From: Daejeonella sp.
GTDB taxonomy: Bacteria > Bacteroidota > Bacteroidia > Sphingobacteriales > Sphingobacteriaceae
Assembly: GCF_017495225.1 (NCBI RefSeq)
Contig: NZ_JAFEIG010000004.1
Location: 1-64,000 of the forward strand
Length of the DNA: 64,000 nt
Direction of reading: 5' to 3'
Positions 14,506 to 36,887 of the stretch are shown here, piece by piece. Each line of letters opens with the position of its first letter. Position 1 is the first letter of the stretch. Position numbers and translations under genes: made by a program. Under the pieces are notes generated by a model, which was given only the letters and a program-made list of their open reading frames with translations, was not told the DNA's origin and did no database searches.

Positions 14506-15070
14506 ATTTATTAAGCTGAATATTGTTTTAAATACGTAATAACTTGTTGATGATTGAATTCAAGAAATAATGGTAGAGTACCATTTTGAAGTTCATGCAC
14601 TTTAAGAAAAGTGTCGGATATTGTTTTAAACGTGGCCTCAGACTGAATTTGAGTTCGGTCTTTCATTGTAATTTGAACGGATTTTTTCACACAAAAAACA
14701 AATTAAATGAATAATATTTTTTGTATTCCGATAAATAAGGTGTCTGGGTAAATAACGTTTATTTTGACTAGACTGTCCGTATTGTTTTACCACCGTGGTG
14801 TCTTCACTCGGTTGGTACCCTAAATGGGTTCGAAATACTGTGTAATGATAGGAAAGATTTTTTACTTTACAAAATTTTATTATGGGCTAGTTATAAAAAA
14901 ATAGCAAATTAAATATTTAATAAGGCTTGCTCAAGATGTACTTTTTATAAATAGATATCTCTCTTTACTCATAATTGTTATGTTAAACTTGCTCATAACG
15001 TTTTATGTGTAGAAGAGTTAGACCTATGTTGCGTCTGCAACAGTGGTATATTTCTTACGCGCCGTTAGCT
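14506..15070. other. Gene-free stretch, possible attC-like remnant at its right end
   Basis: About 560 AT-rich bases without a credible gene. Near 14985-15067 a segment runs from CATAACG to CGCCGTTAGC and contains the small hairpin TGTTGCGTCTGCAACA. Its ends resemble those of the longer palindromes between minus-strand genes further right, but similarity is weak. A TGGTACC/GGTTCGAAAT stretch at about 14812-14835 is not a tRNA. Confidence 0.4.
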
Positions 15071-16654: not shown

Positions 16655-16895
16655 CACTGTCCGTAAACTTCAGCGCAGCGGTGTCTACGGATTATTCAAT
16701 GATTGGAGTCTTCAGACTCATTAAAACCCCACCGCTTGAGGCTAATACTATACAACAGCCCTTCTGTTGTATTAGAAAATCAATTTTTGAAATCGAAGGA
16801 AAATTATCGGGTACTGGGAGAATTAAAAGGAGTCTGAAAACTCCTGATATTTATAAATTCTTGGAGACCGCTGCGCTAAACTCTAACGGACAGTG
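16655..16895. mobile_element. MITE-like element, copy A (full length)
   Basis: A 241-bp non-coding element with imperfect terminal inverted repeats. The left end is CACTGTCCGTAAACTTCAGC..., the right end read in reverse is CACTGTCCGTTAGAGTTTAGC.... Inside are TTCAATGATTGGAGTCTTCAGACTC and a small hairpin GGAGTCTGAAAACTCC followed by TGATATTTATAAA. The ORF predicted across it (16681-16896) is in repeat DNA and rejected. No clear target duplication flanks this copy. It lies between the DUF3293 gene and the XRE/DUF262 operon. Confidence 0.82.
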
Positions 16896-17205: not shown

Positions 17206-18558
17206 ATGGAAGAAAAGTACTTAACCCCTGATGAAGAGTTGGAAATTGACGAAGTTGGAGAAGATGATGCTGAATTAGATATTGAGGCAGGCCAAAGGAA
17301 AATAATTTGGCAAGCCAAGGATTTTTCAATTCGTGAGTTTTTAACGATGAAAAATGACGGAGAGTTAGTTCTGCAGCCGTTGTATCAGAGGAATTTCGTC
17401 GCAACAGACTCGATTGCGAGCAAACTTATAGAGTCAATTTTATTAGATGTCCCAATCCCCGTTGTTTATTTAGCCGAGGAGCAAGATGGAAGTTATTCTG
17501 TTATTGATGGTCAACAAAGATTAACGTCATTTCTCTCATTTCTTGAAGGAAAGTTTCCTGATACACGGCCATTTAAGTTATCGGGATTAAAGGTATTACC
17601 TGAGCTTAATCGTAAATCATTTACAGAATTAGATAATGAACTTCAAAAAAAGATAAGAAGTACCACAATTCACTCAATCATTATTAAAAAGGAATCTAAT
17701 CCTGATATCAAGTTCGAGATTTTTGAAAGATTAAATACAGGTTCTACAAAATTGAACGAGGATGAAATCAGAAATACTGTTTATAGGGGAAGTTATATTG
17801 AACTTTTATCAGAGTTAAGTGAAAATGCGGTGTTTCATGGACTGGTTAAAAAGGACAACTTCAAAAAAAGGATGATTTATAGAGGTATGATTCTTCGATT
17901 CTTTGCATTATCTGAAAAATCATATATCAATTACAAGTCTTCAATGAAACAGTTCTCAAACAAAGAATTGCGAGATAACAGAGACCTTTCGCTAAATAAG
18001 GTGAAAGAATATAGGGCACGATTTGAACATTGTTTAGACCTTGTTAAGGTGGTTTTTGGGGACATGGCATTTAGAAGATATAAGCCAGGAAATGATGGGG
18101 AGTCAGGAAAATGGGGAGAAACTCAAATTAATATGGCACTTTACGACATTCAAATGGTCGGTTTTGTTAATTTTAGTAAAAATGATGTGCTGGCGAAAGC
18201 AGATTTAATTAGAGAGGGATTGTTAGATTTAATGACAACCAACCAACAATTTAAAGAACAATTAATTTGGCAAACTTCAGATACAGAAGTCCTTAAAAAA
18301 CGATTCAGAACGTATATGGATATGTTAGATTCAATCATAGGTGACCCGCAATATTCTCAAAGAACATTTTCATATTCAGTTAAAGAACAACTCTTCAATA
18401 ATAATCCTTATTGTGCCATTTCAGGACAAAAGATTTTAGCAATTGAGGATGCAGAAGTTGACCATATTGTACCTTATTCTAAAGGTGGAAAAACCGAAAT
18501 TTCAAATGCTCAATTAGTACTTAGATATTTTAATAGAGCAAAGAGTGATAAATTATAA
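17206..18558 (+). CDS. DUF262 + HNH endonuclease protein (GmrSD-like, putative type IV restriction)
   Basis: A 450-residue protein. The N-terminal DUF262 domain (ParB/sulfiredoxin-like fold) shows YQRNFVATD (about residues 60-68) and the catalytic-type VIDGQQRLTSFL (about 102-113), which in GmrS is linked to NTP use. The C-terminus carries an HNH nuclease with CAISGQKI, VDHIVPYSKGG and NAQLV (about 405-440). GmrSD proteins cut DNA with modified cytosines such as glucosylated hydroxymethylcytosine. This protein joins a DUF262 domain to a plain HNH in one chain. Its XRE neighbour and type I RM downstream place it in a defense island. Target modification is inferred. Confidence 0.85.
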   Translation: MEEKYLTPDEELEIDEVGEDDAELDIEAGQRKIIWQAKDFSIREFLTMKNDGELVLQPLYQRNFVATDSIASKLIESILLDVPIPVVYLAEEQDGSYSVIDGQQRLTSFLSFLEGKFPDTRPFKLSGLKVLPELNRKSFTELDNELQKKIRSTTIHSIIIKKESNPDIKFEIFERLNTGSTKLNEDEIRNTVYRGSYIELLSELSENAVFHGLVKKDNFKKRMIYRGMILRFFALSEKSYINYKSSMKQFSNKELRDNRDLSLNKVKEYRARFEHCLDLVKVVFGDMAFRRYKPGNDGESGKWGETQINMALYDIQMVGFVNFSKNDVLAKADLIREGLLDLMTTNQQFKEQLIWQTSDTEVLKKRFRTYMDMLDSIIGDPQYSQRTFSYSVKEQLFNNNPYCAISGQKILAIEDAEVDHIVPYSKGGKTEISNAQLVLRYFNRAKSDKL

Positions 18559-18988: not shown

Positions 18989-20497
18989 ATGACTCAAGAT
19001 TTAGAAAAGACCCTTTGGGCAACCGCAGATAAACTCCGCAACAATATGGATGCTGCCGAATACAAACACATTGTACTCGGTTTAATTTTTCTAAAATATA
19101 TCTCTGATAGTTTTGAAGAACTTCATTCAAGATTACAGGGTGATAAATTGTCTGATGCTGAGGATAAAGATGAATACCTGGCAGAGAACGTATTCTTTGT
19201 ACCTCCAACAGCTCGATGGAAATATCTACAATTTGAGAGAGCCAAACTCCCAACCATCGGAAAAGATATTGATGATGCGATGGATGCCATTGAGAAGGAA
19301 AACCCCAATTTGAAAGGTGTTTTACCGAAAGATTATGCTCGTCCTGCATTAGATAAAAAACGATTAGGTGAATTGATTGACCTAATTGGAAATGTTGGTT
19401 TTTATGAACCTGGTCTAAATAGCAAAGACCTATTGGGTAGAGTTTATGAATACTTCCTTGGGATGTTTGCTGATGCCGAAGGAAAACGGGGAGGTCAATT
19501 TTATACTCCCGAAAGTATTGTAAAGTTATTGGTTGAAATGTTGGAGCCTTACAGTGGCCGTATCTATGATGGATGTTGTGGTAGTGGTGGAATGTTTGTG
19601 CAAAGTGAAAAATTCCTTCAAGCACACGGTGGAAGATTAGATGATATTTCTGTTTACGGGCAAGAGAGTAACCCAACTACCTATAAATTGGCAAAAATGA
19701 ACCTCGCTATCAGGGGAATTGATGCTAAAATTGAATTGGGTGACACTTTTCATAACGATAGACATAAAGACCTTCAAGTAGATTATGCCATCATGAACCC
19801 CCCATTTAATGTTTCCGATTATGGTGCTGAAACCTTACAGGATTCTCACTTGTGGAAATATGGTGTACCCCCTTCAGGGAATGCTAACTATGGATGGTTA
19901 CAATTAGTGATTAACAAACTAAGTCCAAGTGGAATGGCAGGTATTGTACTTGCAAATGGTGCCATGACTTCAAACTCTGGTGGAGAGAATGAAATAAGAA
20001 AGAATATGATTTTGGATGGTATGGTTGATTGTATGGTTGCCCTACCTACCCAATTATTCTTTAATACTCAGATTCCTGCCTGTTTATTCTTTTTGGCACG
20101 CAATAGAACCAACGGTAAATTCAGAAATCGTAAAGATGAAATACTCTTTATTGATGCTCGTAAATCAGGGGCATTAGTATCAAGAAAAAACAAAGCGTTT
20201 ACAGATGAGGATATCTCCAAAATCTCTGAGGTGTATCATAATTGGAGAAGTAAAGATGGAAACTATGAAGATATACAAGGTTTCTGCAAATCAGCCACAT
20301 TAAAAGAAGTTGAAGCGAACAACTTTGTTTTAACTCCTGGCCGTTATGTAGGAACTGAAGACGTAGAAGATGATGGGGTTTCATTTGAAGATAAGGTTGC
20401 AGTAATTTCTGAGAACCTAAAATCTCATTTTGAGAAATCCATTGAACTGCAAGAACGCATTAAACTTAACCTAAAAAAAGTGGGGATTGAGATATGA
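18989..20497 (+). CDS. hsdM: Type I restriction-modification system DNA methyltransferase (M subunit)
   Basis: A 502-residue N6-adenine methyltransferase. The N-terminal helical HsdM domain has VLGLIFLKYISDSFEE. GGQFYTPESIVKLLVE leads into SAM motif I IYDGCCGSGGMFVQ, and the catalytic NPPF motif is AIMNPPFNVSD. Length is typical. It methylates the site set by HsdS in the M2S complex and forms R2M2S with HsdR. Its stop overlaps the next ATG by four bases, so the AlbA_2/Schlafen-type gene is translationally coupled and likely functions with it. Confidence 0.95.
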   Translation: MTQDLEKTLWATADKLRNNMDAAEYKHIVLGLIFLKYISDSFEELHSRLQGDKLSDAEDKDEYLAENVFFVPPTARWKYLQFERAKLPTIGKDIDDAMDAIEKENPNLKGVLPKDYARPALDKKRLGELIDLIGNVGFYEPGLNSKDLLGRVYEYFLGMFADAEGKRGGQFYTPESIVKLLVEMLEPYSGRIYDGCCGSGGMFVQSEKFLQAHGGRLDDISVYGQESNPTTYKLAKMNLAIRGIDAKIELGDTFHNDRHKDLQVDYAIMNPPFNVSDYGAETLQDSHLWKYGVPPSGNANYGWLQLVINKLSPSGMAGIVLANGAMTSNSGGENEIRKNMILDGMVDCMVALPTQLFFNTQIPACLFFLARNRTNGKFRNRKDEILFIDARKSGALVSRKNKAFTDEDISKISEVYHNWRSKDGNYEDIQGFCKSATLKEVEANNFVLTPGRYVGTEDVEDDGVSFEDKVAVISENLKSHFEKSIELQERIKLNLKKVGIEI

Positions 20498-22161
20498 ATA
20501 ATTGGCAGGAAGATAGTAACATAGATTTCAAGAGCTTAAAAAAAGCATTGGGGCCTAAGTCAGATGTTGAATCCTTAGCTGAAACTTGCGTTTGTTTTGC
20601 AAATGCTCAAGGCGGCAAGTTGGTTATTGGTATAGAAAACAAAGAATCAGAACCACCAGCTAATCAGAAGATAAATATTGAAGAAATGAATAAAGTAGTG
20701 AGCAGACTTCGTTCATTGACAGATGGTGTTGGCTTAGTTAATCCTGAAATTATTAAACACAATAATGGAGGTGAATATTTTGCAATTAACATTTTACCTT
20801 CAACTCGTATTATTGCCACAACATCATCTGGAAAAGTATTTGTTCGTATTACTGACAACTGCTATGCTGTCAAAAGTGAAGAGTTAACCGACCTTGCAGC
20901 TGAAAAAAATGCCTTTCAATGGGAATTGGTAGTTGCTCAAAAAATAACTATACAACAAGCAGATGCAGAGCAATTTAATTTTTTCATTAATCAAATTCGT
21001 AAATCAAATAAAGTATCTGATTTTATTAAAGATAAATCAGATATTGAAATATTAGAACACTACCAACTACTTTCTCCCGATGGTTATTTAACCAACTTAG
21101 GCATTCTTTGGTTGGGTACACCAGCTCAACGAGCAAGATTAAGTTATCCTATCACTTTTCAATATTTGGTGTATAACGAACGTGAAGAAAAAATAAGAGA
21201 AAAAAAATATCATTTTCATCAATATAACCCTATGCAGTTATTATTGGAAATTGAAAAAGAAGCCGTAGAACTTACCTACTCATCTGAATTAAGCAATGGC
21301 TTATTTAGAGATACTATCCGTAACTATCCAAAAGAAGTGATTAGAGAACTTTTAATAAATGCTATTGCTCATAAACGCTACACAAGTTCAGGCGATATTT
21401 TTTTAGAGGTTTATCCTGATAGAATTGTATTTACAAACCCTGGCGGTTTACCTTTGGGCATTTCAAAGGATAATATCTTGCACGAAAGACAAAGACGAAA
21501 TCCTCACTTAATACAAACACTACATGACCTAAAATTAATGGAGGGTGAAGGCTCTGGTTATGACCTTGTGTATGAGAAATTAAGTTTGGATGCAAAACCA
21601 TTCCCTGAAATAGAGAGTACATTTAATAAAATGTCTGTTACTGTACAGTCTGGAATTATTGACGAAGAGGCATTGTCAGTCATTGATTATATCAAAAAAC
21701 ATTTTCAACTTACGCAAAAGGAAACAATCACTTTAGGTATAGTTGCTACAAGAAAGAAAATATTAGCTACACAGCTATCTGTGGCTTTGCAATTAAACCA
21801 AGAAGACAAACTCAAATATTGGTTAGGCTCTTTATTAGATAAAAATATATTAATTAGTAGAGGTGTAAAAAAAGGAACGGAATATTTACTCAATCCCGAT
21901 TTATTCTCCCAAGCAAAACTAAACCTTACTCCAAGTCTTAAAACCATTGAACCTCATAAATTAGAGGCTTTGATTTTAGAAGATTTAAAATACAATGGCA
22001 AAAGCGGTATGGTAGCAATTAAAGAACGATTAAACGAAGTTTATCCTGATGATATTCAAAAAATAGTGTACAAAATGGCTCGTAAGGGAATTATTGAGAA
22101 AGAAGGAGCAGATAAAAAAAGAGCATATTTTGTAAGCATAAAAAAAGCAAATGAAAAGTAA
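20494..22161 (+). CDS. AlbA_2 (Schlafen-type) DNA-binding/ATPase protein inside the type I RM operon
   Basis: A 555-residue protein of the AlbA_2/RecG-like transcriptional regulator group. The N-terminal AlbA_2 domain (about 1-130) reads DSNIDFKSL...ESLAETCVCFANAQGGKLVIGIENKE. The middle (about 270-370) has a GHKL-like ATPase part (VIRELLINAIAHKRYT, GEGSGYDLVYEKLS). The C-terminus has winged-helix-like segments. It overlaps hsdM by four bases and precedes hsdS, so it belongs to this type I locus. It may regulate the locus or act as a second defense component; which one is unknown. Confidence 0.88.
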   Translation: MNNWQEDSNIDFKSLKKALGPKSDVESLAETCVCFANAQGGKLVIGIENKESEPPANQKINIEEMNKVVSRLRSLTDGVGLVNPEIIKHNNGGEYFAINILPSTRIIATTSSGKVFVRITDNCYAVKSEELTDLAAEKNAFQWELVVAQKITIQQADAEQFNFFINQIRKSNKVSDFIKDKSDIEILEHYQLLSPDGYLTNLGILWLGTPAQRARLSYPITFQYLVYNEREEKIREKKYHFHQYNPMQLLLEIEKEAVELTYSSELSNGLFRDTIRNYPKEVIRELLINAIAHKRYTSSGDIFLEVYPDRIVFTNPGGLPLGISKDNILHERQRRNPHLIQTLHDLKLMEGEGSGYDLVYEKLSLDAKPFPEIESTFNKMSVTVQSGIIDEEALSVIDYIKKHFQLTQKETITLGIVATRKKILATQLSVALQLNQEDKLKYWLGSLLDKNILISRGVKKGTEYLLNPDLFSQAKLNLTPSLKTIEPHKLEALILEDLKYNGKSGMVAIKERLNEVYPDDIQKIVYKMARKGIIEKEGADKKRAYFVSIKKANEK

Positions 22162-22361
22162 ATCTAAAAAGAAAATAACATAAGTTATTGATAATGAGGT
22201 ATTTAATTTCGTTTCATCTAAAAGCAAATGAAAACAAAACAACAGTTCTTTAAAAAATAAATGAAATTTAAAATCAACGACAAAAATATTCAATTGACTA
22301 ACATACAGAATTTTATGTCATTTATTACGTCCTTGTTTTTTAAAATAAATAGTCAAAGATT

Positions 22362-23510
22362 ATGAGTGAGTGGAAAGAATATAAATTAGGGGATTTGGTA
22401 ACATTTCAAAGGGGTCATGATTTGCCTCGTGATGATATGAAGGACGGTGTATACCCTGTAGCTGGCTCAAATTCAATTATAGGTTATCATAATAAATATA
22501 CATCCGATTTCCCTGGTATAACCATTGGGAGAAGCGGAAATATTGGGAATCCACAGTTACACAAAACTAAATTTTGGGCACATAATACAACTCTGTTTGT
22601 TAAAGAATTTAAGAATGTAGACCCTATTTTCTTTTATTATCTTCTTAAAACTTTAGATTTTTCACAATTAAATTCAGGGAGCGCTGTTCCAAGTTTGAAT
22701 AGAAACTTTATTCATCCATTTAAAGTTGAAATACCGTCCTCCATCCCAACCCAAACCGCCATCGCAGAAATCCTCTCCTCTCTTGATGATAAAATTGAAC
22801 TCAACAATAAAATCAATTATGAATTAGAGACCCTTGCTCAAACCCTTTTCAAACAATGGTTTATTGATTTTGAGTTCCCAAATGAAAATGGAGAACCCTA
22901 TAAATCATCAGGTGGTGAAATGGTGGAGAGTGAATTGGGGGAGATTCCGAAGGGGTGGGAAGTGAATAGATTAAATGATATTGCTGATTGTTTTGATAAT
23001 AAAAGAATACCATTGTCTTCAATGGAAAGAAATGTCAGAAAAGGTAATTACCCATATTACGGAGCTGCATCCCTAATGGACTATATTGATGATTATCTGT
23101 TTGATGGTGTTTATATTCTAATGGGAGAAGATGGTTCAGTTACCGACAACACAGGGTATCCTGTTTTACAATATGTCTTTGGAAAATTTTGGGTAAATAA
23201 TCACGCACATGTTTTGAAAGGACGAAAAATATCAACTGAACTTGTTTTATGTTTATTAAAAAACACTAACATAAGTGATTTAGTAACAGGCGCGGTACAA
23301 CCAAAGTTAAATCAAGGTAATATGAATAAAATTTCAATCCCATTACCTAAGGATTTATTAATAATATCTGACCTTGAAAAATTAATTACAGAATATTACA
23401 ATCTCATTCGGAATAACATTTTGGAAATTAAAGAATTAGTTAACATCCGTGATATTCTTCTTCCAAAACTAATCTCAGGTGAATTAGAAATTAACGAAAT
23501 CAACAATTAA
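22362..23510 (+). CDS. hsdS: Type I restriction-modification specificity subunit (S)
   Basis: A 382-residue HsdS with two target-recognition halves. TRD1 (about 1-125, [15 protein letters not shown]) is followed by conserved region 1 ([22 protein letters not shown], a dimerising helix) and a [11 protein letters not shown] linker. TRD2 starts at [17 protein letters not shown] and ends in helix 2 with [13 protein letters not shown]. Two different TRDs predict a bipartite asymmetric site. It follows the AlbA_2 gene by 200 bp and its stop overlaps the hsdR start by one base. Recognition sequence cannot be read from sequence. Confidence 0.94.
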
Positions 23511-26500
23511 TGGCAGCAGTAATATCCGAAGACCATATAGAACAAATCGTCATTCAAGAGTTTATTGAATTGGGGTATTCCTACGTCAATGGAGCAGATA
23601 TTTCACCTGATGGTATTGCCCAAGAACGAGAGTTTGATGAGGTAGTCTTGAAACAAAGATTACAAACTGCAATTGCTAAACTTAATCCGAATGTGCCTTT
23701 TGAAGCACAGGAAGAAGCCATTAAGAAAGTTCTTAGAACAGATAGCCCCAATTTATTTCAGAATAACTATCAGGTTCATAAATACCTAACCGACGGTGTT
23801 GATGTAGAATATAGAAAAGGAGACCGTATTGCAGGTGATAAAGTTTGGTTAATTGATTATGAAAATCCATCTAATAATGAATACTTGGTGGTTAATCAGT
23901 TTACCATTATTGAAAACAATATCAATAAAAGGCCTGATATCATCTTGTTTGTAAATGGTCTTCCATTAGTTGTTATTGAACTAAAAAACGCGGTTGATGA
24001 GAATGCGACGATACATTCTGCATTCAATCAATTACAGACCTATAAATCGGCAATTCCATCCTTATTCCTTTACAATGCCCTACTCATTATCTCAGATGGT
24101 TGGGAAGCTATGTATGGTTCTTTAACCTCACCAAAGCAATTTTTTGTGCCTTGGAAATCCATAGATGGGAATATAGTCGCAGATGAAGACATCCCCCAAA
24201 TGGAGGTGATGGCAAAGGGCATGTTGAATAAAAAAGTACTGACTGACCTTATCAGACATTATATCCTTTTCCATCAAAATAAAGAACAAATCACCAAGAT
24301 TGTCCCACGTTACCACCAATACTTTGCAGTAAATAAGGCTGTAGAAACTACAAAAACGGCTACAGCTATTGATGGAGACCAACGTGCAGGAGTAATTTGG
24401 CATACGCAAGGGAGTGGTAAAAGTTTGAGTATGGTTTTTTATGCGGGAAAATTAGTTTTGGCATTAAATAACCCAACACTTGTTATTTTAACCGATAGAA
24501 ATGACTTAGACGACCAGTTATTTGATACTTTTTCACAAAGTCAGGATATACTTCGTCAAACACCTGTGCAAGCAGAAAACCGTGATGACCTTAAAAAGAA
24601 ATTAAGTGTAACATCAGGAGGCATCGTGTTTACAACCATTCAAAAATTTCTTCCTGAGGTAATTGAGAAAATTGATATCGGCGAAGGGAAAACCAAAAAT
24701 ATTAAAGGTCAATTTGAATTACTATCAGACAGAAGAAATATTGTAGTTATTGCCGATGAGGCTCATAGAAGTCAGTACGACTTTATGGACGGATTTGCTA
24801 AACACATGAGGGATGCACTTCCAAATGCGTCCTTCATAGGTTTTACAGGAACCCCGATTGAGAATACCGATAAGAATACACAAGCCGTATTTGGAGATTA
24901 TATTGATGTTTATGATATACAACAAGCTGTAGAAGATGGGGCTACTGTACGGATTTTCTATGAAAACAGATTGGCAAAAATTAGTATCAGAGAGGAAGAT
25001 AAACCGAGAGTAGATGCTGAATTTGAAGAACTCACCGAGAGTGAAGAACAAGATGACCGTCAGAAACTAAAATCTAAATGGGCAAGATTAGAAGCCATAG
25101 TTGGTAATGAACACCGACTGGAACTAATTGCCAACGATATTGTCAAACACTTTGAAACTCGTAATGAAATATTAGACGGTAAGGCTATGATTGTGTGTAT
25201 GAGTAGACGTATTTGCGTGGATTTGTATGCCCAAATAATTAAAATTAGACCCGACTGGCATAGCGATGATGATAATGAAGGAACCATTAAAGTAGTTATG
25301 ACGGGTTCATCTTCTGACCCCTTAAATTTCCAACCACATGTTAGAAACAAAGGGAAACGGAAAGCATTGGGTGAAAGGCTTAAAGACCCTAAGGACACAT
25401 TAAAACTTGCTATTGTGAGGGATATGTGGTTAACGGGATTTGATGCCCCATCTATGCACACCCTCTATCTTGATAAACCTATGCAAGGACATAATTTGAT
25501 GCAAGCCATTGCAAGGGTAAATCGGGTTTATAAGGATAAAGAAGGTGGTTTAATAGTCGATTATATTGGTATTGCTAACGATTTGAAACGAGCCTTGGCA
25601 TTGTACACCGAAAGTGGAGGGAAAGGTAAACCTGCATTCGACCAAGAAGAAGCCGCATCAGTAATGATGGGAAAATATGAAATTGTGGCTCAAATGTTTT
25701 CAGAACAACCTACTGATAAAACCGTTCAAAAGGGACTGGACTATAAATCATTTTTCACCTTAACATCAAAGGAAAAACTATATTTCCCGATTAAGGCTGC
25801 CAATTATATTTTAGGATTGGAGAATGGAAAAGACAGATTTGTAAATTCGGTAACTGCGCTGTCTAAATCATTCGCCATATCTGTCCCCCACCCCTACACC
25901 ATAGATATTAGAGATGAGGTTGGATTATTTCAAGCCATTAAAGCTCGAATTGTGAAGGTTACCCAAAGTGGTAAAGGAAAGTCAGATGAAGAGCTAGAAA
26001 CAGCCATTAAACAAATTTTGTCTGACGCTATTGTATCCGATGAGGTGATTGACATTTTTGATGCTGCAGGTATAAAAAAACCTGATATTTCCATTTTATC
26101 TGACGAGTTCCTTGCTGAAGTTAAGGGAATGACACATAAAAATCTCGCTTTAGAGTTACTAAAGAAGTTGTTAAATGACGAGATAAAAACAAGAAACAAG
26201 GTAAACTTGGTTCAATCCAAGAAATTCTCTGAGATGTTAGATAGCTCTGTAAGAAATTATCAATATAACCTGATTACATCCGCACAGGTTATTGATGAGA
26301 TGATTCGACTTGCCAAGGAAATAAAAGAAGCCGATAGACGTGGAGAGGATTTAGGTCTTGATTTCAGGGAATATGCATTCTATTCGGCTTTAGAGGTTAA
26401 TGATAATTCGGTAGCAGTTTTGGGGGATGAAATACTCAGACATATTGCCCGTGACTTAGTTGATACCGTAAGAAAAAACACTTCAATTGATTGGACGGTT

Positions 26501-26701
26501 AGAGAGAATGTACAAGCCAAGATGAGGCTTGCGGTCAAGAAGATACTTCGTAAACACGGCTATCCACCTGATATGGAATTGAAGGCTACAGAGACGGTTA
26601 TTGAGCAGGCTAAATTATTGGCAAATGATTTTTCAAGGACTCAAACAGTTTATCCATTAAAAGGAGATGATAATTTATTTTTAGCTGCGGACAGTGAGTG
26701 A
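23510..26701 (+). CDS. hsdR: Type I restriction-modification endonuclease/translocase (R subunit)
   Basis: A 1063-residue HsdR. The N-terminal nuclease has the PD-(D/E)xK pattern RPDIILFV...[10 protein letters not shown] (about residues 140-165). The SF2 translocase shows Walker [16 protein letters not shown] box [18 protein letters not shown] and the C-terminal RecA motifs [20 protein letters not shown] and QAIARVNR. The helical C-terminus binds HsdM. It cuts unmodified DNA after ATP-driven translocation. Frames and motifs are intact, so the system should be functional. Confidence 0.95.
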
Positions 26702-26743: not shown

Positions 26744-27358
26744 ATGGAAGACTTTATATTTGAAAAGCCGAAGCATGGTTTTTTTGATGAGTTAGTAAGC
26801 TATTTTGCCTCAATATCTTCATTAGGAACAAACTTCGAACTACAAAAGACGGGAAGAGCAGAAAAATGGTTACCGGAACATTATTTAACTATCGAAGGAA
26901 TAAAATCAGTTACAAATTGTGAAATTAGATTTTATCCACATGATACATTAAATGAAATTTCAATTAATAGTTGGCCAAATAAAATCAGGTTACAAAAAGC
27001 TCCTTTAACAAAGAATATACCTGAACACCCTATTGTTTTAAATGGTATACAAAAATTGCATGGTTCAATGATACAATCTGCATTTATACATTTTTATGAG
27101 AGGTATGTATCTGAAGTAAAATTAAAATTTGGAGAAAATACGATGAATTGGCCAGCGGTTTGGAACTTTGGTAGAGTTATAAGAAATGCTTTCGCTCATG
27201 GAGGGGAAATAAAGATAGAAAATCCAAATTCTCCAAAAGTTTCATGGAGTTCATTAGAGTATGACTCCACTTTTAATGGCCGAAATATTATGTATAAAGA
27301 CATTACACCTGTTGAAACAATTTTTCTTATGGATGAAATGGATAAACAAAGGAGATAG
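26744..27358 (+). CDS. Hypothetical protein, possible HEPN-like fold
   Basis: A 204-residue protein following hsdR by 42 bp on the same strand. I do not recognise it as a whole. The segment GRVIRNAFAHGGEI (about residues 148-161) has R-x4-H with the Asn after Arg, the shape of the HEPN ribonuclease catalytic motif. The surrounding helices would fit. The rest is not diagnostic. It could be an accessory toxin or RNase in the defense locus, or an unrelated protein with a chance motif. Confidence 0.6.
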   Translation: MEDFIFEKPKHGFFDELVSYFASISSLGTNFELQKTGRAEKWLPEHYLTIEGIKSVTNCEIRFYPHDTLNEISINSWPNKIRLQKAPLTKNIPEHPIVLNGIQKLHGSMIQSAFIHFYERYVSEVKLKFGENTMNWPAVWNFGRVIRNAFAHGGEIKIENPNSPKVSWSSLEYDSTFNGRNIMYKDITPVETIFLMDEMDKQRR

Positions 27359-27801: not shown

Positions 27802-28689
27802 ATGTTTGAAATAGAATTTATTGTAATTTTCCTAGTGGTTATTTTTTTCCTTTATCAATCGAATAAATCAAAACCCATTAAAGTAAAAATAGTTACTCAA
27901 GTACCAGTACCCAAAGAACAACCAATAAATGCACCGATAACAATCCCTACGGTCTCCAAAAAAAATGAAAAAAGAAATAATTTACTGAAAGATAAATGGG
28001 TTGAAAAAATATTAAATGAAATTATAAATTTTAGCAATGTCCCAAATTTGCTTAAAAATACACCAATCAATAATATCAGATATTATAACCTTTTAAATTG
28101 TTTTGAATGGCAATTTAAAAGATTCAAGATATTGGTAAGAGATAATTTTACTTGTCAAGATTGTCAAGAAAAGGGTGATAGATTACATGTTCACCATAAA
28201 TATTATTTAAGCAACTTTTTACCATGGGAAATTGATGATTCAGCATTAGTTTCACTTTGTAAAAACTGTCATAGCCAACGACATTTAAGAGAAACTATTA
28301 ATATTTACGAAAAGGTAGGAAATCAATTACAACTATCAAATCATGCTTACTACATATGCTGGAAATGTAATGGTACAGGATATCTACCGCAATATGCCTA
28401 TTATGAAAATGGAGTTTGTTTTGCTTGTTCAGGAAATGTAATCAATGCGACCATCTTCAGCAATCGATTAAATCAAATATCCGCTGATTTTAATTTGTAT
28501 GACATAGGAAATATAGAAAATGAGTTTTTAGATTTCTGTAACTCAATTACGGTCGATTACTTTATGAATAATATTCACAATAATCTATACAGCGAAGAAG
28601 AATCAGAGATAAATGACTTTTTTTCGCCTGATAATAAAAATCTTCAAAAACAAAGTGAAGAAGCCCATGACGACGATTTACCCTTCTGA
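27802..28689 (+). CDS. Membrane-anchored HNH nuclease-like protein with an SSB-type C-terminal tail
   Basis: A 295-residue protein. An N-terminal transmembrane anchor (about residues 5-19, FIVIFLVVIFFLY) is followed by a Pro/Lys linker. An HNH domain (about 110-160) has CQDCQEKGDRLHVHHKYY, then SLCKNCHSQRH, with zinc Cys pairs and the HH motif. A second zinc ribbon of DnaJ style (CWKCNGTGY...CFACSG, about 184-212) follows. The C-terminus is acidic and ends exactly in DDDLPF, the signature of SSB C-terminal tails that dock repair and replication proteins. Membrane location plus a replisome-docking tail is unusual. Nuclease activity and docking are inferences from motifs. Confidence 0.75.
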   Translation: MFEIEFIVIFLVVIFFLYQSNKSKPIKVKIVTQVPVPKEQPINAPITIPTVSKKNEKRNNLLKDKWVEKILNEIINFSNVPNLLKNTPINNIRYYNLLNCFEWQFKRFKILVRDNFTCQDCQEKGDRLHVHHKYYLSNFLPWEIDDSALVSLCKNCHSQRHLRETINIYEKVGNQLQLSNHAYYICWKCNGTGYLPQYAYYENGVCFACSGNVINATIFSNRLNQISADFNLYDIGNIENEFLDFCNSITVDYFMNNIHNNLYSEEESEINDFFSPDNKNLQKQSEEAHDDDLPF

Positions 28690-28769: not shown

Positions 28770-29008
28770 CCCCACTGTAGACTTCAGCGCAGCGGTGTCT
28801 ACGGATTATTCAATAATTAGAGTCTTCACACTCATTAAAACCCCGCCGCTTGAGGCTAATACTATACAAAGCTCTTCTGTTGTTTAGACAATCAATTGTT
28901 GAAATTGAAGGAAAATTATTGGGTAGTGGGAGAATTAAGAGGAGTTTTAAGACTCCTGATATTTATAAATCTGTAGAGACCGCTGCGCTAAAACTAGCGC
29001 TCAGTGGG
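28770..29008. mobile_element. MITE-like element, copy B (full length, with 7-bp target duplication)
   Basis: About 239 bp with terminal inverted repeats CCCACTGTAGACTTCAGCG... and, reversed, CCCACTGAGCGCTAGTTTTAGCG.... The sequence ATTTTGA stands on both sides (28763-28769 and 29009-29015), the best evidence for transposition of the family. The interior is like copy A. It is non-coding and lies between the HNH-tail protein and the minus-strand zinc-finger protein. Confidence 0.85.
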
Positions 29009-31045: not shown

Positions 31046-32068
31046 CTATAAAGGTTCTGCACTTCCCCATCCTCTTTCTGGAAATAAATTTGTTGTCGAG
31101 TTAATATGTTTTGAACCTCCTTTGTGTGTGCTATATGTTTTACAATTAGGAAGATTTTTTTTGATACATTCTATCACAGCTTTTCTTGGATGTTTTTTAT
31201 TTCCAGCTGCTGAAACCCAATACTGTTTTGGATTAAAATTGCAAATCCAATTAGTATTAACATTTCGTCTGCTGCCGTGATGAGGAAGTTGGGCAATGTG
31301 AAAGTCTTTCATATTAAACCCATTGTTTTGTGCTGATTCATATGAATCAACGCCACTGTCAGCAGTGAACAAATAGCGTCTATTACTACTGTCTGTTAAT
31401 TGTATTATTGTACTTGTTAGATTTTCAGCTGATGTATCATTTTTTTCATCCACCACTACACAAGGTTTATTTCCCTCTTCAACCTCATTAACGTCTTCTT
31501 CTGCTTCTTTAAGTTGGTGCATTCTTTCTAATGAAGTCTTGTCAGTAAAAAATTGAACTTTCTGTTTATAAAAAGCTTCGCTTGGTCCTAACACCTTAAA
31601 CAAACTGTGTTCAAGATTTGTGTCTGAAAATATTGGCTGCGGTGTTAGTCCATAATTTTTAAGTAGCGTTTTAAAATCATCAACATCTTTTAGTGATTCA
31701 TACAATCCATTAATTTGTCTGTTTGCTATATATTTTTGATGGTATTCGGTTATTAAATTTCTCTGTATTAAATTAATATAAGCAAGAGGGTCATTGAAAT
31801 AAACTCTTTTAATGTCAGTCCCGAAATGATTAATAATTTCAGGTAATCCACCAATATGGTCACGGTGCGGATGTGAATTTATTACAATCATTATTGGCTT
31901 TGCTATCAAATGTGGTTTTATATAAGCGTTGTAATGCTTTACAACTTCATTTCCGTCTCCAGGTTTGCCACCATCAAGAAAAATGATAAAGTCACCACCG
32001 TCCTGCTTTAACCATAAAATTATTGCGTCTGCGTCTCCAACGCTTAACATATCTATACTGAAGTCCAT
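31046..32068 (-). CDS. MBL-fold metallohydrolase (ComEC/Rec2-type)
   Basis: A 340-residue metallo-beta-lactamase-fold protein. It starts with SVGDADAIILWL and FLDGGKPGDG, typical of ComEC-like MBL domains, and has the metal-binding HPHRDHIGG (about residues 66-74). The distal metal/active-site parts are FTADSGVDS and LPHHGSRRN (about 233-265). It is cytosolic, with no signal. It is transcribed 10 bp after a small membrane protein, and a trypsin-like protease lies just upstream. MBL plus trypsin-like pairs occur in anti-phage systems (AVAST type 1, as I recall); substrate here is unknown. Confidence 0.85.
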   Translation of the reverse strand: MDFSIDMLSVGDADAIILWLKQDGGDFIIFLDGGKPGDGNEVVKHYNAYIKPHLIAKPIMIVINSHPHRDHIGGLPEIINHFGTDIKRVYFNDPLAYINLIQRNLITEYHQKYIANRQINGLYESLKDVDDFKTLLKNYGLTPQPIFSDTNLEHSLFKVLGPSEAFYKQKVQFFTDKTSLERMHQLKEAEEDVNEVEEGNKPCVVVDEKNDTSAENLTSTIIQLTDSSNRRYLFTADSGVDSYESAQNNGFNMKDFHIAQLPHHGSRRNVNTNWICNFNPKQYWVSAAGNKKHPRKAVIECIKKNLPNCKTYSTHKGGSKHINSTTNLFPERGWGSAEPL

Positions 32069-32078
32069 ATTTTATATT

Positions 32079-32531
32079 TTATTTACTGTCTTTTGATGCT
32101 CTTGATTTTTCTATGCCCCAAGTAGCTTGGGCTAAGTCTTCAATTTTTGAAATGAATTTATCTACATTAAGTCCTGCAATAAAAGCAAGTGCATAGAACC
32201 CAAAATTTGAGGAGGTTGCTTCTGTTTGCGATTCAAGAAATAACAGTCCTGCTTTTAAGAATAAAAAACTAACTCCACCCGTCAAAATACTTACAAGTGG
32301 TCGGATAATATACCATGGATACCACTCGCTGCTCCATTGCTTTTTTACACTATAATTTAGATACAAACCTCGCAAGCAATATAGCACACCACCAAAGCCA
32401 CCTGCTAGTCCGCAAGTAATTGGTAACTGAAAAGGTGTTGTCCAGTCTGGAAATTGTCCGCTAAGTAAGCAAACAACAAGAGTAAATAGTCCTGCTAAAA
32501 AAAGTAAAAGATAAATCGCTATTCCTATCAT
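32079..32531 (-). CDS. Small multi-pass membrane protein paired with the MBL hydrolase
   Basis: A 150-residue protein with about four transmembrane segments (around residues 3-24, 36-54, 75-95 and 107-122) and a charged cytosolic-type C-terminal tail (KIEDLAQATWGIEKSR). No family is recognised. Its stop lies 10 bp before the MBL gene start, which suggests a tight two-gene unit. In a defense setting it could be a membrane effector or anchor; this is only inference. Confidence 0.7.
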   Translation of the reverse strand: MIGIAIYLLLFLAGLFTLVVCLLSGQFPDWTTPFQLPITCGLAGGFGGVLYCLRGLYLNYSVKKQWSSEWYPWYIIRPLVSILTGGVSFLFLKAGLLFLESQTEATSSNFGFYALAFIAGLNVDKFISKIEDLAQATWGIEKSRASKDSK

Positions 32532-32564
32532 TTTGTTTGTCGTTTTATGTTGTTATGTCGATCG

Positions 32565-32717
32565 TTATGCTTGCAGCTAACGGTTTGCAGCTACCCGAAG
32601 GGCGGGACTTTTACCACAAAACTTGATTTGAAAAACTAATGTTCGTTTAACCACAAAACTGTCTTTGGAAAACGAAACCCCGCCTTTTGAGTAGGTGCTG
32701 TTATAAGCCGTTTTTCT
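32565..32717. repeat. attC-like imperfect palindrome with an internal direct repeat
   Basis: About 150 bp. One arm is GCTAACGGTTTGCAGCTACCC followed by GAAGGGCGGG; the other, read on the minus strand, is GGCTTATAACAGCACCTACTC then AAAAGGCGGGG. The spacer contains ACCACAAAACT twice with a TTTG-AAAAC follow-on. Ends resemble the TATAAC...CGTTAGC boundaries of integron attC sites. It separates the protease gene from the membrane protein/MBL pair. Confidence 0.65.
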
Positions 32718-32727
32718 GTTTTTCATT

Positions 32728-33750
32728 TCAAACTGTCGCAGGTGTCAGATGTGCTTGAAGTCTGGTTTCAATAATATTTAAAGGTGAAGCAATTGCATTT
32801 ACATATTGAAAATTACCATCCCTTTTATTGTCAATAGAAAGCTGAATCGGACAAGCTTGACTTTGAATTGCATTGACTTTGAATTTGTCTGTTTCGCTGT
32901 CATAAAAAACGTACGGTGCACCGGATGAACCAAACCTAAAATATCCTTTTATTAAATATCGAATGCCCTCGAATGTATAGTTGCCTCCAATTCTGTCGGG
33001 GAAAATTCCAAAATGATCAATAAACCCCTCAATCTGTGCTTTGTTCAACAGTTTGCCAACTTCACTACTAGGAGAACTTTGTAAACAATAGAAGTTCAGT
33101 TTATCGTCATCAAATATTGTGTAATCAACTTCAACACTTGGTAGGCGATCAATAATATCTTTGTTAGTATTTACAATTTTGTACAATGCGATATCCTCAT
33201 TATAAAATGCTTTAACTAATTCTACCTCTATGAAATAGGTATGTCTATTTGCTGCTGGTTCTGCCAAATACGTATTTGCATTGAAATGGGCAGTTAGTAT
33301 AGGGTCGTTGTAAAATTGATTGTTTTTAAACTGAACGATTAAATGAGGTTTACAAATATTATTTTGAGCCAAAGTAATCCAACGTGTATCGTAATTAATC
33401 CGTTTTAATTCTCCAATTATTTTTTGTGCATCTGTTTCATTTATTTGCGTTATGTATCTTTTATTAGTTGCTGGGTCGAGCAGATATGAAGAGTCAAACA
33501 ATGCTACTAATGTCGGATCAATTTTAGAAATGATGTCCGCTTGAAATGAAGTTTCAGTAATTGATTTGAACGCAGTTGCTTCAGTTCTCAAATTATGTGC
33601 TACGCTTAAAATAAATCCATTGCCAATGTGAAATGCACATATATTATTGTCATATTGTCTCCTTGTTGGTTCGTTAGGATTTTGTATCCACATTATTCTA
33701 AATAAAGGGGATTTTTGTTCATTTGTTAATTCTAACTTCTTTGCTATCAT
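32728..33750 (-). CDS. Trypsin-like serine protease (putative defense-associated)
   Basis: A 340-residue protein not labelled by any obvious family name but with a trypsin-like triad pattern. FHIGNGFILSVAHNL (about residues 40-54) matches the catalytic His motif (TAAHC-like). NEDIALYKI (about 183-191) matches the catalytic Asp strand. FGSSGAPYVF (about 274-283) matches the GxSGxP nucleophile loop. No signal peptide is visible, so it should act in the cytosol, unlike secreted trypsins. The order, wide spacing and context suit chymotrypsin-fold proteases of bacterial conflict systems. The MBL gene downstream strengthens that idea. Confidence 0.75.
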   Translation of the reverse strand: MIAKKLELTNEQKSPLFRIMWIQNPNEPTRRQYDNNICAFHIGNGFILSVAHNLRTEATAFKSITETSFQADIISKIDPTLVALFDSSYLLDPATNKRYITQINETDAQKIIGELKRINYDTRWITLAQNNICKPHLIVQFKNNQFYNDPILTAHFNANTYLAEPAANRHTYFIEVELVKAFYNEDIALYKIVNTNKDIIDRLPSVEVDYTIFDDDKLNFYCLQSSPSSEVGKLLNKAQIEGFIDHFGIFPDRIGGNYTFEGIRYLIKGYFRFGSSGAPYVFYDSETDKFKVNAIQSQACPIQLSIDNKRDGNFQYVNAIASPLNIIETRLQAHLTPATV

Positions 33751-33993: not shown

Positions 33994-34229
33994 CCCACTG
34001 TAAACTTCAGCGCAGCGCTGTCTACGGATTATCCAATGATTGGAGTCTTCACACTCATTAAACCCTTTTTCAATGATTATCGTCTTCACACTCATGAAAA
34101 CCCCGCTTCTTGAGGCTAACACTCTACAAAGCTCTTCTGTTGTTTAGACAATCAATTTTTAAAATCGAGGGAAAATTATCGGGCACTGGGAAAATTAAGA
34201 GGAGTTTGAAGAGTCCTGATATTTATAAA
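33994..34229. mobile_element. MITE-like element, copy C (right end missing)
   Basis: Begins with CCCACTGTAAACTTCAGCGCAGCG and carries an internal duplication of the TTCAATGATT...CACTCAT block also seen in copies D and E. Homology stops after TGATATTTATAAA, so the right terminal repeat is lost. Confidence 0.75.
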
Positions 34230-34314
34230 CTATTAATTTCTATTGAGTTTCTATTGAGTATTTGTTGTTTTTCTAACATAATCTACTCAATAGAATATCT
34301 TGCCCAACGATTAA

Positions 34315-34630
34315 CCCACTGTCCGACTTCAGTGCAGCGGTGTCTACGGATTATTCAATGATTGGAGTCTTCAGACTCATGAACCCCTTTTTCAATGATT
34401 ATCGTCTTCACACTCATGAAAACCCCGCTGTTTGAGGCTAACACTCTACAAAGCCCTTCTGTTGTTTAGAAAATCAATTTTAAAAATCGAAGGAAAATTA
34501 TCGGGCACTGGGAAAATTAAAAGGAGTCTGAAAACTCCTGATATTTATAAATCTGTAGGAGACCGCTGTGCTAAAAATAGGGGATAGTGAAAGAATTAAG
34601 AGGAGTCTGAAGACTCCTGACATTTACAGC
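34315..34630. mobile_element. MITE-like element, copy D with a trailing fragment
   Basis: Starts CCCACTGTCCGACTTCAGTGCAGCGG and reaches a degraded right end GACCGCTGTGCTAAAAATAGGGGATAGTG at about 34589. It includes the same internal duplication as copy C. It is followed by an extra right-half piece (AAGAGGAGTCTGAAGACTCC, to about 34630), which points to repeated insertion or recombination between copies. Confidence 0.75.
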
Positions 34631-36691: not shown

Positions 36692-36887
36692 CCCACTGTC
36701 CTTAGACTTCAGCGCAGCGGTTTCTACGGATTATTCAATGATTGGAGTCTTCAGACTCATTAAACCCTTTTTCAATAATTATCGTCTTCCCACTCATTAA
36801 AACCCCGCTGCTTGAGGCTAACACTTTACAAAGCCCTTCTATTGTTTAGAAAATCAAGTTTTAAAATCGAGGGAGAATTATCGGGCA
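36692..36887. mobile_element. MITE-like element, copy E, inserted in an attC-like half (right end missing)
   Basis: Starts CCCACTGTCCTTAGACTTCAGCGCAGCGG and carries the internal duplication seen in copies C and D. Homology ends at GAATTATCGGGCA. The sequence just to the left (TTGGCGAAGAGGCGGATTTC, then GAAGCACTAAACTTT) matches the arm of the attC-like family, which stops at the MITE border. Confidence 0.72.

Follow-up and report, generated by a model that had tools for sequence, protein, structure and literature searches.

A predicted membrane-anchored HNH protein that ends in an SSB-type tip in Daejeonella sp. and a few other Bacteroidota

Bacterial genome maintenance has its main docking code in the C-terminal tip of SSB, which reads DDDIPF in E. 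coli and as a rule is carried by ssDNA-binding proteins. Why should such a tip close a protein that is built around an HNH domain? The question is raised by one gene within a stretch of 64,000 nucleotides from Daejeonella sp. (contig NZ_JAFEIG010000004.1, positions 1 to 64,000; hereafter the window, meaning the whole stretch that was analysed), in which an initial annotation had described a membrane segment, an HNH domain, a zinc ribbon and a copied SSB tip. The gene and its parts are as follows.

27802-28689, + strand: complete gene, stop codon included (ATG start, TGA stop), encoding 295 amino acids
27802-27861, + strand: N-terminal membrane anchor (residues 1-20) with basic residues behind it, predicted to lie N-out and C-in; hydropathy and AlphaFold helix 2-20, seen in all four full-length members
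27862-27957, + strand: variable low-confidence linker (residues 21-52); pLDDT as low as 45, mean identity among members 15%
28075-28290, + strand: HNH domain (residues 92-163) with Cys118/121/153/156 and His131/132/157/161, and Ala148 in place of the central Asn; PF01844 match, ligands invariant in 17 relatives save one Cys156
28354-28434, + strand: zinc ribbon CxxCxGxGYLPQ...GVCFACSG (residues 185-211); found by Pfam scan, four Cys invariant in 17 relatives
28435-28659, + strand: C-terminal extension (residues 212-286), confined to the proteins with anchor and tip; mean identity among members 22%, missing from other relatives
28660-28686, + strand: SSB-type C-terminal tip EAHDDDLPF (residues 287-295); DLP invariant and an aromatic end in all four members, disordered in the model, pattern rare in the genome

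The encoded protein, which has no paralogue in its own genome, finishes in ...KQSEEAHDDDLPF directly before the TGA, its very last residues being EEAHDDDLPF, exactly the acidic run and DDDLPF end that had been annotated. The N-terminal segment was likewise borne out: its Kyte-Doolittle peak over 19 residues is 2.23 (residues 1-19), KSKPIKVK follows directly, and it forms helix 2-20 in an AlphaFold model made from an input of 17 sequences (mean pLDDT 71.5). In the other three full-length members the hydropathy peak is 2.5-2.9 and is followed by 2-5 Lys/Arg within the next 15 residues. Hydropathy gives no second strongly hydrophobic segment in the 295 residues, and because Lys/Arg residues come after this single hydrophobic helix (positive-inside rule), the bulk of the protein, nuclease domain included, is predicted to face the cytoplasm. 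The alternative of a signal peptide or a lipoprotein, with the nuclease in the periplasm, was rejected from the sequence, since a basic n-region is missing in three of the four members and basic residues stand right after the hydrophobic stretch. Behind the linker, which is of low confidence up to about residue 50, the model has a helix at 53-75 and further helices up to 283; the HNH region (about 94-163) is confident (block means about 79-93), the ribbon (C186-x2-C189-x-G-x-G-Y...C206-x2-C209) is of low confidence, and the end from 285 to 295 is disordered.

Is the tail a genuine SSB-type tip or an accident of composition? Single-sequence scans of genome and viral collections gave no matches and profile scans were required; these brought in three further members with the full layout. 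The protein of Pedobacter quisquiliarum (L146, identical to L002/G050) ends in ...EGDDDDLPF, that of G290, a second genome of the same genus (L033/L168), in ...VEEEDLPW, and that of Maribacter litopenaei (L145), which belongs to the order Flavobacteriales, in ...YADDDLPF. None of the full-layout members lacks the tail or runs past it. Mean identity among the four is about 50% in the HNH region, 60% in the ribbon and about 22% in the extension, and the last six residues are 75% identical on average, with D-L-P invariant and F, F, W and F as final residues. As the extension is only about 22% identical and the exact end is nevertheless kept, the tail appears to be conserved and not accidental. 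The layout as a whole is retained in distant relatives, and for this reason the protein is very likely functional.

The host genome itself offers a comparison, which the initial annotation had called for. A DNA-pattern search for DDx[I/L/M/F]PF followed by a stop found four sites in 3.1 Mb and none with the reversed pattern as control. Three of these sites close genes: the gene at 27802-28689, SSB (...EAADDILPF) and a DUF3127 protein (...APGDDDLPF); the fourth has no open frame of at least 25 residues ahead of it. The tip in this genome therefore otherwise marks SSB and one protein whose likeness to SSB we infer. Because the exact end is kept across two orders, and the other users of the pattern in the host are SSB and this SSB-like protein, we consider it quite likely that the tail is a real SSB-type docking tip and not a product of chance. 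The SSBs of G290 and G050 end in GDLPF and GDIPF; the G290 SSB thus closes on Phe, and the Trp end of the G290 member was therefore not copied from its own SSB. The host encodes RecO and RecQ, two classical readers of the SSB tip, and these are candidate partners. The HNH protein has no PF00436 match, that is no SSB OB fold, and a PF00436 search of the genome leads to two other loci.

The DUF3127 protein of the host (L181, 1501-1875, on C21; end GDDDLPF) has a counterpart with the tip in G050 (L177, 1501-1899; end GDDDDLPF), so that beside SSB these bacteria probably have DUF3127 proteins as another SSB-like bearer of the tip. A second SSB of the host (L142, 342-698, on C17) is without acidic tip and ends in GKKAAV.

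The wider family places the anchor and the tip in time. HNH and ribbon proteins related to the core occur in Flavobacterium, Emticicia, Lacihabitans, Rufibacter, a Prevotella plasmid and other Bacteroidota; in these an insert separates the first Cys pair from HH, the chain stops soon behind the ribbon, and anchor and tip are both missing, and the copied tip is to this extent a property of one branch and not of the family, one of whose four bearers ends in Trp. In a maximum-likelihood tree computed from the HNH and ribbon core columns only, the four anchor-and-tip proteins form one clade (support 98/95) among 22 other core sequences, none of which has the tip, and the label requires one change on the tree, a value as low as which was reached in 0 of 500 shuffles. 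Since the wider relatives have neither feature and the bearers are one clade, a single gain of anchor and tail is indicated, and the simplest account of these sequences would have the anchor, the compact HNH, the extension and the tip arise together once and persist in both Sphingobacteriales and Flavobacteriales. Members of the clade are rare. They were found in two of 147 genomes of the G290 genus; a phylum sample of 396 genomes added no further one, and neither did other families, sampled twice at about 400 genomes; plasmid and phage collections gave only relatives of the HNH part or of HNH plus ribbon (the Prevotella plasmid protein is one without the tail), and scans of viral contigs gave many small HNH proteins and no member with anchor, ribbon and tip.

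Two side observations concern small HNH proteins at large. Proteins of about 100-130 residues with an N-terminal membrane helix, without ribbon or tip, are encoded at L024 1498-1821, L027 631-945 and L139 2869-3270, the last on a viral contig, and membrane-anchored HNH proteins thus recur. In L005, L007, L010 and L011 a small HNH gene is followed by a conserved coiled-coil-like gene (about 200 amino acids), and this pair of genes recurs in genomes of the family.

Whether the HNH domain is likely to cut can be judged from its residues. The annotated domain and its Cys pairs are there: PF01844 matches residues 118-161 with 22.0 bits, just above its cut-off of 21.4 (21.6 and 23.0 bits in two other full-length members), and the structural Cys are invariant across the 17 relatives except for Cys156, missing in one. 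The central Asn of the motif is not; it is replaced by Ala, Ser or Tyr in all 17 relatives, whereas the GVE2 HNH has it. The catalytic residues do not vary freely, as H131, H132, H157 and H161, corresponding to HNH metal ligands and general base, are invariant across the same set. In colicin-type HNH enzymes three His hold the metal, the fourth is the base and Asn is structural; nuclease activity is therefore plausible despite the loss of Asn. A fold search of the model returned mainly HNH domains (GVE2 HNH, Cas5-HNH, McrA, Cap5), with no E value below 0.001, and also the HNH-fold protein DotN. The lost Asn, and the fact that HNH folds can be non-catalytic, with DotN among the matches, speak against activity; on balance the domain is likely to be an active nuclease, probably a nickase or endonuclease.

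Taken together, the reading we favour, with middling confidence, is that of a membrane-tethered HNH nuclease which would dock SSB-binding repair and replication enzymes through its SSB-type tip, probably in defence against incoming DNA. The nuclease would be held at the membrane facing the cytoplasm, and the tip on its flexible C-terminus may dock readers of the SSB tail, RecQ and RecO being present in the host and RecJ, PriA and RecG being other candidates. The HNH domain could then cut DNA near the membrane, most likely that of an incoming phage or plasmid, and the docked unwinding and resection enzymes, held at the cut, would turn a nick into degradation or a blocked fork. In this scheme we infer nuclease activity, tip binding, recruitment in preference to competition and the defence role, the last of which we hold to be slightly favoured. 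The strongest form, a one-gene anti-invader system in which the SSB-reading enzymes of the host (RecQ, RecO, RecJ, PriA) would be taken over so that DNA coming in at the membrane is destroyed or blocked, is put forward as a tentative proposal. The Trp end of one member, in a genome whose SSB ends in Phe, is a point against the favoured reading, and the island context described next is another, since it also fits service to a mobile element.

The gene had been placed between a type I restriction locus and a MITE copy. A type I locus does precede it (18989-26701, + strand), with HsdM at 18989, an AlbA/Schlafen-type gene at 20494, HsdS at 22362 and HsdR at 23510-26701, and a MITE-like repeat lies downstream at 28783-28992; the gene does not follow HsdR directly, as a small ORF whose function is unassigned (26744-27358) sits between the two. 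MITE-like inverted repeats occur at 16672-16877, 28783-28992, 34009-34348 and 36711-36728 with the common sequence AGCGCAGCGGTGTCTACG, which has seven matches in the window where zero are expected by chance. Further upstream stands a GmrSD-like gene (17206-18558, + strand) with a GmrSD_N domain and a C-terminal HNH. Past the MITE-like repeat lies a module at 31046-33750 (- strand), in which an LmuA/Avs1a-like gene of MBL fold (PADLOC PDC-M48B, 345 bits) stands with a gene for a small membrane protein and another that shows trypsin-like motifs (GNGFILSVAHNL, GSSGAP), and this module resembles the MBL nuclease and protease pairs of several defence systems (PMC12799240). The window also shows an AlbA/Schlafen and HATPase_c_4 gene (20494-22161) inserted between HsdM and HsdS, and a SAM-I/IV riboswitch at 14750-14843 on the - strand (Rfam RF01725, 50.4 bits).

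The other three loci differ from this one and from each other. In G290 two genes, for an HKD-SNF2 helicase and for a type IIG/PglX-like methylase, precede it, and downstream of it are a NACHT gene and radC; in Pedobacter quisquiliarum it is followed by radC; in Maribacter it adjoins integrases, replication genes and a MobA relaxase, with HsdM/HsdS about 6 kb off. A shared-neighbour test found no partner gene common to all four loci, the partial sharing being limited to radC in the two Pedobacter-group loci and a distant HsdM in the window and Maribacter. Such a pattern is that of a stand-alone, sporadic accessory gene of defence or mobile islands, which would move horizontally.

Such surroundings would also suit a protein in the service of its carrier element, a membrane nuclease or recruiter through which the DNA of the element would gain SSB-binding repair enzymes for its replication, integration or transfer. 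The integrases, replication genes and MobA relaxase beside the Maribacter gene favour it, as does radC, a gene common on mobile elements, after the gene in both Pedobacter-group loci. However, integrase and relaxase genes occur in the Maribacter locus only, restriction genes are near three of the four loci, and a partner shared by all is missing, and we regard this explanation as unlikely.

A decoy would need no cutting at all: at the membrane the tip would compete with SSB for partners such as PriA, RecO or RecQ and so block the replication of an invader, with the HNH domain as a non-catalytic DNA-binding scaffold. The replacement of the central Asn throughout would agree with this, and DotN, itself a protein of a secretion coupling complex, gives an example among the fold matches; yet four invariant histidines would hardly be expected of a mere scaffold, and a monomer tied to the membrane would compete poorly with the abundant, tetrameric SSB, which makes the decoy quite improbable. 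The acidic tail might instead fold back on the DNA-binding surface of the HNH domain or ribbon and keep the nuclease off until DNA displaces it, something of which acidic C-terminal tails of nucleic-acid-binding proteins are capable (Hfq, PMC5606850). The flexibility of the tail in the model would allow such auto-inhibition, but what is conserved is a specific LP-aromatic end and not acidity alone, and tail-less relatives have the same HNH and ribbon; we hold it to be highly improbable. Coincidence or another use of the tail, for instance as a protease signal, a part that C-terminal hydrophobic residues can play, draws on there being just four known sequences and is scarcely credible given the same exact end in four diverged proteins, its absence from the other 22 core sequences in the tree and the SSB-type nature of the host's tip users.

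How does the nuclease that docks through its tip, as we prefer to see it, compare with known systems? With the host SSB it shares an acidic run and L-P-F at an exact, disordered C-terminus, but the tip sits on a membrane-anchored HNH and ribbon protein without OB fold; the DUF3127 protein of the same genome has the same tip on a small SSB-like domain, with no HNH and no anchor. The unnamed cytoplasmic HNH and CxxCxGxG ribbon proteins of Bacteroidota (L147-L155, L157-L165 and Prevotella pE2-28) have the same HNH core and ribbon at 33-48% core identity and differ by their insert and by the missing anchor, extension and tip. By analogy, the closest functional precedent would be ZorE, the HNH nickase of Zorya type II, to which the HNH similarity reaches 19.1 bits (E 1.3e-4) and which becomes membrane-associated during phage infection (PMC11890865). 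ZorE is soluble and brought in by ZorAB, whereas the present protein has a built-in anchor together with ribbon and tip; a PADLOC scan of ten proteins of the window matched neither ZorA nor ZorB, and no neighbour is common to the four loci. Similarity to IscB-type HNH (NF040563) is confined to the HNH part (27.9 bits against a cut-off of 175), and the DnaJ central domain (PF00684, DnaJ_CXXCXGXG) scores 15.4 against 32.7 bits, a weak likeness to half of that domain, there being one CxxCxGxG...CxxC ribbon and not four repeats. Filing the protein as IscB, ZorE, DnaJ or SSB was thus rejected by scores or architecture. The annotators had known of no named system with this architecture, and this held: the model scans found no family model that names the layout, and the openly licensed literature searched holds no description of it. 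Each part is of a known kind (HNH, zinc ribbon, SSB tip), and the combination is new.

An HNH nuclease family that gained both an SSB tip and a membrane anchor in a single step, and has held on to the tip through deep divergence, suggests that accessory genes, probably for defence, can plug into host repair through the SSB docking code. In the anti-invader form of the proposal, this code would become the weapon of a protein that is not an ssDNA-binding protein. The system is also a simple one of a single gene, in which the tip, the anchor and the active site are open to mutation one at a time.
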